From Alloscardovia macacae (GTDB lineage: Bacteria > Actinomycetota > Actinomycetes > Actinomycetales > Bifidobacteriaceae), in the NCBI RefSeq assembly GCF_002259705.1, contig NZ_MWWT01000005.1:372001-436000 (forward strand): 64,000 nucleotides of DNA, written 5' to 3'. The position numbers were made by a program, and so were the translations under genes. Below are positions 17,244-38,988 of this stretch, piece after piece (the stretch's first letter is position 1; the number at the start of each line of letters is the position of its first letter). Under the pieces are notes generated by a model. It saw nothing but the letters and a program-made list of their open reading frames with translations, was not told the DNA's origin and made no database searches.

Positions 17244-18051
17244 ACTTCGCCCATTCGTCCAGCTGTTCACCAGTCATGTGATACATGGCATCGATGATGC
17301 GGTTTCGGTAGGTGGCATTCCCATCACCCGGCTGCATGAAGGTCCAGCCTATCTCACCAGCTACTCCCATAGCGCACACGGCCGCTGCAGTGGCCTCTAA
17401 GATAGAGGAAGAATTGGCAGAAATGAAGGATGCCAGCAGGCCGGACAGCTGACAGCCCGTACCGGTGATGCGGCTCATCTCGGCGCGGCCGTTTCGGATG
17501 ACGTAACACGTATCCGCGTCGGCTACGAGGTCGATGGCGCCCGTAATGGCCACCACGCAGCTGTGCGCGGCCGCAAAACTCTTCGCGAACGTGACCATGG
17601 ACTCGAGGTTCTGATCGGTCACAGCATCCGCGGCATCTGCATCCACGCCCTTCGTCGTTCCGCCGGTCCCAGCGAGCGACTTAATCTCCGAAACGTTCCC
17701 GCGGATGACGTCGAACGGAATTTCGCTGAGCAGACGCGCGCACACCTCATCGCGGTACCGGCTCGCACCCGCGCCCACCGGGTCAAGCAGGGTAGGGTGG
17801 CCGAGCTCAGCCGAACGGCGGCCCGCGATGGACATGGCCTCGACGGTGATGGAATTCAGCGTACCGATGTTTATATTCAGACCGCTGCAGATGGACGTGA
17901 TGTCATAAACGTCCTCAGGGCCGTCCGACATGATAGGACTCGCGCCGCACGCGAGAACCATGTTCGCCACGTCATTCACCGTGACATTATTCGTGATGTT
18001 ATGAACTAACGCTGACCTCTGACGTAGAGTATCAAGATATACGCCCAGCAT
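17230..18051 (-). CDS. thiM: Hydroxyethylthiazole kinase
   Basis: ThiM phosphorylates hydroxyethylthiazole for condensation by ThiE. The 273-residue ribokinase-like protein contains VHNITNNVTVND, ANMVLACGASPIMSD, DPVGAGASRYR and the catalytic RITGTGCQLSGLL. It is the first gene after the TPP riboswitch, whose 3' end overlaps the Shine-Dalgarno region (GGAAAGGAAG). The operon contains only salvage enzymes; no thiC, thiG or thiL is visible here. Confidence 0.93.
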   Translation of the reverse strand: MLGVYLDTLRQRSALVHNITNNVTVNDVANMVLACGASPIMSDGPEDVYDITSICSGLNINIGTLNSITVEAMSIAGRRSAELGHPTLLDPVGAGASRYRDEVCARLLSEIPFDVIRGNVSEIKSLAGTGGTTKGVDADAADAVTDQNLESMVTFAKSFAAAHSCVVAITGAIDLVADADTCYVIRNGRAEMSRITGTGCQLSGLLASFISANSSSILEATAAAVCAMGVAGEIGWTFMQPGDGNATYRNRIIDAMYHMTGEQLDEWAKYEIL

Positions 18052-18061
18052 ATACTACTTC

Positions 18062-18142
18062 CTTTCCTTACGCTGGCATTACCCAGATCAAGTACGGTCG
18101 GAGCTCCGTGCTCCCTCTCAGCCACGCTGTGGCTCCCGAGTA
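18062..18142 (-). promoter_or_regulatory. TPP riboswitch (THI box)
   Basis: Read on the minus strand, the leader contains the conserved aptamer pieces in order: GGCTGAGAGGGAG, GACCGT, then TGATCTGGGTAATGCCAGCG followed by TAAGGAA. The 3' end runs into the thiM ribosome-binding site about 10 bp before the ATG, and no separate terminator hairpin is seen. Ligand control of translation initiation is therefore the simplest reading. Confidence 0.93.
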
Positions 18143-18301
18143 GTTTTGAGTCTAGCGGAGGGTGTGGTCGTCTGGGTGGTGGGGTCGTGTCGTGGGATCT
18201 GGGCCGGTCGGAGGCGGTGAAGAAAGCCGGCGCTGACGGCGCGTGACGGTATACTAGTGAGGAACTTCCGTAGAGGGCACATGACTGAGGGGAGTACGCG
18301 C

Positions 18302-37553: not shown

Positions 37554-37629
37554 GTTGTTTGTAAATCATCTCACAAATGAAGCTCATGAGAGGAATGACG
37601 AGCCTAAAATGAGATGATTTACAAACAAC
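37554..37629. repeat. Inverted-repeat element copy A, left end of the nuclease cassette
   Basis: GTTGTTTGTAAATCATCTCA (37554-37573) and its exact reverse complement (37610-37629) enclose 36 bp. The right arm ends one base before the stop codon of the minus-strand nuclease-like gene. The same 20-mer pair recurs on the other side of that gene (38902-38988). Confidence 0.9.
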
Positions 37630-37630
37630 G

Positions 37631-38806
37631 TCACTGAGTTCTAAGAAGTTTTTGGCGTTCTATTTTCTCCTCTTCAGGAATCTCAGGGACCCCAGCTAAC
37701 TTCATCTTCCGTATCATCGACGCACCATCGTTGACGAGTGCCTCGATGAATTGAACGTGCACGACGCGGCAGCCTACGAGGTGGAGAGCCTCATCGCGGT
37801 CATGGTCTCGCAAAGCTACCTCTGCAGAATTCTGGACATGGATGGATTTCAGCATGTCTTCATCCGTATATTTAATGAGCCCATCCACTTCCATGACGAG
37901 ATGCGGCTGAGGAGTATTCGGGAACACATTTGTCCATTCAAAATCCGTATACATGCTCTTCTCGTTATACAGTGTACGAATCCGCGAACGTTCTGGTGAG
38001 TAGAGGAGATTCTCATGCTGTGTCTGCAGCTGAGGAGCCTGGAAACCAGCAGCGAGAAGACGCGCACGAGCGAATGACTCTGCGTGACTAGGAGAATTCA
38101 GATCCATAAGCGAGAGCTTATAATCCACCGACTCTGTACGCCAGTAAGGATTCGTGGCATGGAGATACTCCCGAATATCCTCCACACTATGGCGGTAGAA
38201 GCGTGCGAGAAACTCGCACACAGGAAGCGCTATCTCGAAAGGAACTTCACGGAATATGTCTATGACTATCTGTGAGATACAGGTAATGAGTAGACCACTG
38301 ACTAAACAGTAATCTTCATTGATCACCTTAAACCTGAACGCCAGCTTTTCCGGAAGGAGAAAGATAGGATAATCCGCCTTCTTCCCATACCATCCGAGCC
38401 TTTGCGTGACGAGTTCATCGGGGAGTGGGTGGGGATTATGGCGAAAATCCACAAGCATCGTTTTGCGGACGCTCTTCGAAGATAATCGGTTATAGGAAAA
38501 ATGCGTAATTTGGCAGTACTTGTAGTACTCCGGATACTCAGGTACAGCACCCAGTACGAGCGCGGCAGACATTCCGCGCAGTGGCCACTTCGGGTGTGAG
38601 CGTGCATAGGCATACGTTTTTGCTAAGGTCTGCTCATAGGGTGTCAGCGAATTCCATACGTCAGGCTCAGCGTAGTACCCTGGGATAGGCTGGAGAAGAG
38701 TGCCTTTAGCGGCGTATCTGCTCCATGCACAGCGCTCAGCATGAGTGGCTGGTTGCATCAGCGGTGGGTCTATAGCTTGTTTCATGTTTCCAGTGTGATG
38801 CCTCAT
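37631..38806 (-). CDS. AbiEi-like / DUF559-type nuclease-fold protein bracketed by inverted repeats
   Basis: This protein of about 391 residues resembles actinobacterial proteins with an AbiEi-like N-terminal half (HPKWPLRGMSAALVLGAVP) and a Vsr/DUF559-like PD-(D/E)XK C-terminal half: YTDFEWTNVF, HLVMEVDGLIKYT, then ALRDHDRDEALHLVGCRVVHVQF. The Asp and Glu-x-Asp positions fit a metal-dependent nuclease core. ATG 38806 (MRHHTGNM) is taken as start; TTG 38833 and ATG 38785 are alternatives, none with a good ribosome site. It has its own flanking repeats on both sides and lies between unrelated housekeeping genes, which suggests a defence or selfish cassette. The activity is unproven. Confidence 0.72.
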   Translation of the reverse strand: MRHHTGNMKQAIDPPLMQPATHAERCAWSRYAAKGTLLQPIPGYYAEPDVWNSLTPYEQTLAKTYAYARSHPKWPLRGMSAALVLGAVPEYPEYYKYCQITHFSYNRLSSKSVRKTMLVDFRHNPHPLPDELVTQRLGWYGKKADYPIFLLPEKLAFRFKVINEDYCLVSGLLITCISQIVIDIFREVPFEIALPVCEFLARFYRHSVEDIREYLHATNPYWRTESVDYKLSLMDLNSPSHAESFARARLLAAGFQAPQLQTQHENLLYSPERSRIRTLYNEKSMYTDFEWTNVFPNTPQPHLVMEVDGLIKYTDEDMLKSIHVQNSAEVALRDHDRDEALHLVGCRVVHVQFIEALVNDGASMIRKMKLAGVPEIPEEEKIERQKLLRTQ

Positions 38807-38901
38807 GATGAAAATGTCACGCGTGAAAAGCAATTGTTAGCAGATGTGGATAACCGTGTCGCGAGCGTGCATGTTGGGAGGACGAATACTGCTTTCATGA
38901 A

Positions 38902-38988
38902 GTTGTTTGTAAATCGTCTCATTTCGTCGGCTATAGGAGGGGTTGAAACGGGTAAATACCTGTAAGGATGAGATGATTTACAAACAAC
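38902..38988. repeat. Inverted-repeat element copy B, right end of the nuclease cassette
   Basis: GTTGTTTGTAAATCGTCTCA (38902-38921, one base different) and the exact 20-mer reverse complement (38969-38988) enclose 47 bp. The element lies about 95 bp upstream of the nuclease-like gene. The outer arms of copies A and B face each other, so the 1435-bp segment 37554-38988 has 20-bp terminal inverted repeats. Confidence 0.9.

Follow-up and report, generated by a model that had tools for sequence, protein, structure and literature searches.

A nuclease gene set between two copies of a dispersed hairpin element in Alloscardovia macacae: a probable REPtron-like system with an unrelated enzyme

Introduction

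REP elements and their RAYT enzymes are the one well-known case in which a single-copy bacterial enzyme is kept together with a dispersed population of palindromes. The RAYT protein spreads and maintains its own repeats by a chemistry unlike that proposed here (PMC8266576), and the resulting REPINs have conserved inverted ends, a spacer kept by length rather than sequence, compensatory changes and tandem clusters (PMC3116915). The locus studied here, in a 64,000-nucleotide stretch of the Alloscardovia macacae genome (contig NZ_MWWT01000005.1, positions 372,001 to 436,000; hereafter the window), raises the question of how a single nuclease-like gene is related to the four copies of a 20-bp sequence around it. 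The original prediction, made from the sequence of the window, treated gene and repeats as a 1435-bp cassette that could be excised, inverted or mobilised in trans. Here, we asked which unit is repeated, whether repeats accompany homologues of the gene, and what the protein may do with them.

Architecture of the locus

The 20-mer had been reported as two inverted pairs flanking one gene, and it lies at 37554-37573 (+), 37610-37629 (-), 38902-38921 (+) and 38969-38988 (-). Three of these copies are exact and the one at 38902 has a single mismatch (GTTGTTTGTAAATCGTCTCA); the four-site arrangement had no counterpart in shuffled sequence. The features of the locus are as follows.

37554..37629, no strand: hairpin element A, 76 bp, with arms 37554-37573 (+) and 37610-37629 (-) and a 36-bp interior
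37631..38833, minus strand: nuclease gene, AbiEi-like N-half and PD-(D/E)XK (Vsr/DUF559-type) C-half; stop codon 37631-37633
38844..38852, minus strand: DnaA-box-like motif TATCCACAT, directly upstream of the nuclease gene and kept upstream of homologues
38902..38988, no strand: hairpin element B, 87 bp, with arms 38902-38921 (+, one mismatch) and 38969-38988 (-) and a 47-bp interior

The nuclease gene, which has a DUF1653 gene and a serA-like gene as neighbours, probably starts at TTG 38833 (400 aa) or ATG 38806 (391 aa). Element A lies between the stop codons of the convergent DUF1653 and nuclease genes and ends 1 bp from the latter, and element B, which separates the stop codon of serA from the nuclease gene, is 68-95 bp upstream of the two likely starts, which agrees with the predicted placement of one pair at the stop codon and the other in the promoter region. 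Both elements fold strongly when taken alone (z -7.3 and -10.0 on the two strands for A, -7.2 and -7.1 for B), and the 64-kb window has only four hairpins of comparable quality, A and B included. A separate AAAAATGCGACTTTTCTAGAAGT hairpin with an inverted partner occurs at two distant sites of the genome (25301-25387 of the window and 508-601 of locus L120) and probably represents another dispersed family. The window also has an ordinary TPP riboswitch (RF00059) at 18048-18149 on the minus strand.

A dispersed element family

A genome-wide search, as the original prediction had proposed, revealed that the 20-mer is not confined to the gene: this 1.9-Mb genome has 7 exact copies and 59 with at most three mismatches, against none for the reversed control. 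Almost all copies form inverted pairs with spacings of 56, 57 or 67 bp, and these yielded 36 elements, 34 of them distinct. Every element is intergenic, and nearly every one lies downstream of at least one gene; according to gene calls from a simple codon-usage script, 19 lie between tandem, 11 between convergent and 2 between divergent genes, and 4 were untyped. Tandem arrays are also present, with arms every 67-69 bp. In the stem, 9 of the 20 pairs have changed on both sides and 96.7% of cells are paired, values that none of 500 shuffles matched. Identity within the family is 85% in the arms, 48% in the interiors (45% when shuffled) and 30% in the flanks, and interior lengths are restricted to 36-37 or 46-48 bp. 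Interiors so little alike mean either that copying took place long ago or that the arms are preserved for some other reason. The two length classes differ by about 11 bp, which is near one helical turn. Arms start with GTTG, GTTA, GTTC or GTAA, and with GTAG in one element only. Identical element pairs occur on the ends of contigs C15 and C17 (L073 and L079) and reflect either duplication of the region or overlap of the two contigs in the assembly.

The family appears to be private to this genome. A strict 20-mer pattern had no match in 85,000 species genomes (a set from which this genome is possibly excluded) and, among 189 genomes of the family Bifidobacteriaceae, matched this one only, while a covariance model of the element retrieved no more than a weak single copy from each of three other genomes, two of them congeners. 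No target-site duplication was obvious by eye beside 11 element copies. The unit repeated in the genome is the single 76- or 87-bp hairpin and not the 1435-bp cassette, of which no second copy was seen. The original prediction had also named a widespread general terminator as the finding that would count against it; copies of the 20-mer are indeed scattered, yet they belong to a REPIN-like element of this genome and not to a general terminator.

The nuclease and its family

The gene belongs to a family that joins an AbiEi fold to a Vsr/DUF559-type nuclease and has about ten paralogues in this genome. The window protein has some nine further matches in its own genome, at about 23-32% identity, and several in the congeners G001 and G003, with none in G002 and G004. 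Pfam and NCBIfam named no domain in it, a PDB sequence search returned chance matches only, and PADLOC gave a weak AbiEi match (E 0.048). Another homologue has AbiEi_4, AbiEi_1 and REase_MTES_1575 domains. The structural model of the Bifidobacterium callimiconis homologue is confident (pLDDT 92), and that of the window protein is weaker (pLDDT 74). Residues 2-195 of the homologue model align with the AbiEi antitoxin 6y8q (Z 9.9), and its C-terminal part aligns with the DUF559-like putative endonuclease 3hrl (Z 7.3), TnsA (5.5) and Vsr (5.2), the last three being weak taken alone as their Z is below 8. These fold statements come from a second structure aligner, Foldseek alone having given no significant match. 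They bear out the two halves that had been proposed for the protein. In addition, E252, D297, E315-x-D317-G, K321-Y and R346 are common to the window protein and 19 Bifidobacterium homologues, so that the PD-(D/E)XK core (acidic E252, D297, E315 and D317; lysine K321) is conserved in the window protein.

Values of dN/dS in close homologue pairs (0.09-0.19) indicate that the homologues are under purifying selection. No AbiEii-type partner gene adjoins the nuclease gene, the window protein had no match in plasmids, and a homologue had none in phages. Two paralogues differ in makeup. The open frame at 2356-4116 of L121 (G000, contig C19) runs on into a LuxS domain (PF02664, E 1.2e-46 in one member of the alignment), a fusion read from the translation. 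The paralogue at 2927-4189 of L122 (G000, contig C1) seems to be without the E-x-D-G-K-Y active-site part in the alignment; its repeat is nevertheless dispersed over about 15 places of the genome.

Private repeats of individual genes

The window 20-mer is absent beside homologues, and the notion that gene and repeat are therefore unlinked was dropped when homologues were each found with arms of their own. A de novo hairpin search detected, at many homologues, hairpins of other sequence on both sides, with the same arms across one gene. The original prediction had regarded homologues without any flanking repeats as evidence against it; many do carry such repeats, of their own type only. Examples are given below.

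Beside C20:151288: own repeat CTACTTTTTGCTAATCGG
Beside C1:248707: own repeat TTTGTAGTCACGAATGAC
Beside C16:508256: own repeat starting TTTTGGGCG
Beside genes in G001 and G003: own repeat starting TTTTTTGCA

The hairpins on the two sides of the paralogue L116 match each other almost exactly in inverted orientation. In a joint BLAST query, the repeats of four paralogues occurred at about 9 to 15 places each in this genome, counts that are lower bounds (as for all repeats other than the window 20-mer), and gave nothing significant in four congeners. Including that of the window, five repeat families are thus dispersed genome-wide here. In three of the paralogue types, the arms are about 91% alike and the interiors 74-89%, compared to 20-38% for the flanks, which marks the whole element as the copied unit. 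Arms of the TTTTTTGCA type number 0 and 2 in congeners without the gene, and 6 and 20 in those with 2 and 7 genes, respectively.

Recurrence across the order

Of 248 genomes of the order (one per species), 161 have a gene of the AbiEi/nuclease type, as do 63 of 86 genera. At 19 of 36 Bifidobacteriaceae loci, the gene is flanked on both sides by hairpins with the same arms (10 or more of 12 bases alike), an arrangement seen in none of 390 random control windows, and a looser test placed 31 of 56 loci above their own shuffles. A strict test of 20 named Bifidobacterium loci was passed by 4 and scored 0 in 12, many having a hairpin on one side; several homologues (L119, L120, L123, L132) are without a clear flanking repeat. 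Outside Bifidobacteriaceae, the two flanks of the gene match each other as an inverted repeat scoring at least 18 at 25 of 30 loci from other families of the order (99% of the null at 17; largest null value 87, from a pair of related loci), and as a direct repeat at 4. That test had been redone, as in its first version L248, L258 and L259 gave signals that arose from overlapping flanks at contig ends. Thresholds and flank lengths were set in the course of the work, and these tests are successive variants on overlapping loci rather than independent trials. Dispersal also recurs: a 400-kb sample of an unrelated genome (G057) has 21 exact copies of its cognate core, 16 of them outside the flanks of the gene, against 0 for the reversed control.

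Loci with more similar proteins have more similar repeats (Mantel r 0.60, 46 loci; 0 of 5000 permutations), also within the other families alone (r 0.55, 26 loci; 0 of 5000 permutations), although the test does not remove shared host ancestry, from which the correlation could partly come. The predicted link between gene and repeat extends well beyond the window, with a different repeat for each homologue. None of the nuclease gene, the adjoining DUF1653 gene and the MFS gene had a match at the serA loci of congeners, which left no clean empty site to read, and close Bifidobacterium pairs revealed no clean gain or loss of an element.

A further conserved feature is a TAT[CT]CACAT-like motif, which is close to a DnaA box and precedes 16 of the 18 homologues in the genus, against an expectation of 0.26. 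In other groups, TCCACA/TGTGGA is common upstream of homologues and rare downstream, and a DnaA-box-like motif is kept upstream of most homologues across the order.

Possible roles of repeats and protein

The association of gene and repeat is well supported, and its best explanation, to which we assign a probability of roughly 0.6, is a REPtron-like system in which an unrelated nuclease is the enzyme. The Y1_Tnp domain of RAYT (PF01797) was detected in none of five genomes of the genus, compared to 5 of 14 control genomes, which makes the nuclease the obvious candidate enzyme. As the link recurs and the repeats vary along with the proteins, the earlier suggestion that the protein recognises these sites is plausible; that it binds the arms, cleaves there and mobilises the hairpins is inferred. 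Most likely, the protein would use its AbiEi-type DNA-binding half together with the nuclease half to recognise the ~20-bp arms of its cognate palindromic element, and would cut or nick at them. Inverted arm pairs (the 76- and 87-bp REPIN-like elements) would then be non-autonomous units, spread by the protein to some 34 sites between genes and with arms that it holds under selection, while the nuclease gene itself would stay put between two of its own elements.

The main rival, which we consider unlikely, is that the repeats are fixed binding sites with a host role in chromosome organisation, replication-linked control or gene-end regulation and are not mobilised by the protein. Conserved arms with drifting interiors, a spacing that falls into two classes differing by about one helical turn, a location mostly at gene 3' ends and the DnaA-box-like motif upstream of the nuclease genes would all suit such sites. 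They are harder to reconcile with the whole elements of three paralogue families, which look copied (interiors 74-89% alike, flanks unrelated), with repeat sets private to one species and with the retention of catalytic residues.

The remaining alternatives are all improbable. A defence nuclease of abortive-infection or restriction-like type, for which its own sites would label or shield self DNA, is suggested by the AbiEi-like and REase-like domains, the weak PADLOC match (E 0.048) and the AbiEi_4, AbiEi_1 and REase_MTES_1575 domains of a homologue, yet AbiE does not feature dispersed private repeats, no AbiEii-type gene lies alongside, and neither plasmids (window protein) nor phages (a homologue) gave a match. 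Slightly less probable still is the 1435-bp cassette as a mobile or invertible unit: its outer arms are inverted, as are the near-exact flanking hairpins of L116, but the repeated unit is the hairpin, and paralogues only about 23-32% identical to the window protein leave no recent cassette copies. The least probable reading has the hairpins act as RNA, by terminating transcription, forming the 3' ends of mRNAs or serving as hairpin RNAs to which the protein binds. It accords with strong predicted folding, covariation and a position mostly downstream of genes; however, the stems are not followed by a T-run, REPINs are placed alike without needing an RNA function, and the possession of an own repeat by each gene would be left unexplained.

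If the REPtron-like reading is right, an unrelated enzyme follows REP/RAYT logic and such partnerships arise repeatedly. We lean only slightly towards the broader claim of a second, independently evolved class of REP-spreading enzymes, AbiEi fused to a Vsr/TnsA-like PD-(D/E)XK nuclease, in most sampled genera of one actinobacterial order, where each gene lineage would keep and spread a private palindromic repeat, often with several pairs per genome. A function would then be at hand for a very common orphan actinobacterial gene family, and many natural nuclease-repeat pairs are offered for specificity testing.

Relation to described systems

The open-access papers searched (subscription papers and preprints not covered) held no description of the gene-repeat association, and none relevant that ties DUF559, AbiEi or MTES_1575 to repeats. 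CGTC-type REPs (PMC3733652) are likewise dispersed palindromes without a RAYT, but no partner gene is reported for them, whereas each repeat has one here. The AbiE toxin-antitoxin system shares the antitoxin fold of the N-terminal part (6y8q, Z 9.9 for the homologue model) and differs in its adjacent AbiEii nucleotidyltransferase gene, in place of which a nuclease domain is fused here. DUF559/Vsr/TnsA nucleases (3hrl, 1vsr, 1f1z; Pfam REase_MTES_1575) share the C-terminal fold and the E-D-E-x-D-K residues; they are described for mismatch repair, for Tn7 cut-and-paste or as of unknown role, and without private dispersed palindromes.

The closest likeness is to REPIN/RAYT systems, or REPtrons (PMC3116915, PMC8266576). 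Common to both are inverted doublets of a short conserved sequence around a variable spacer of set length, compensatory changes, dispersed intergenic placement, tandem clusters, and cognate copies beside an enzyme gene (here on both sides) that is not itself amplified. The enzyme is an AbiEi/PD-(D/E)XK protein here and a Y1 HUH transposase there, and the 20-bp arms are not palindromes themselves and are without the conserved GTAG foot, which occurs in one window-family element only. As the Y1 enzyme and the GTAG foot, two defining features, were tested for and are lacking, the system is not a REPtron, though it would work like one.
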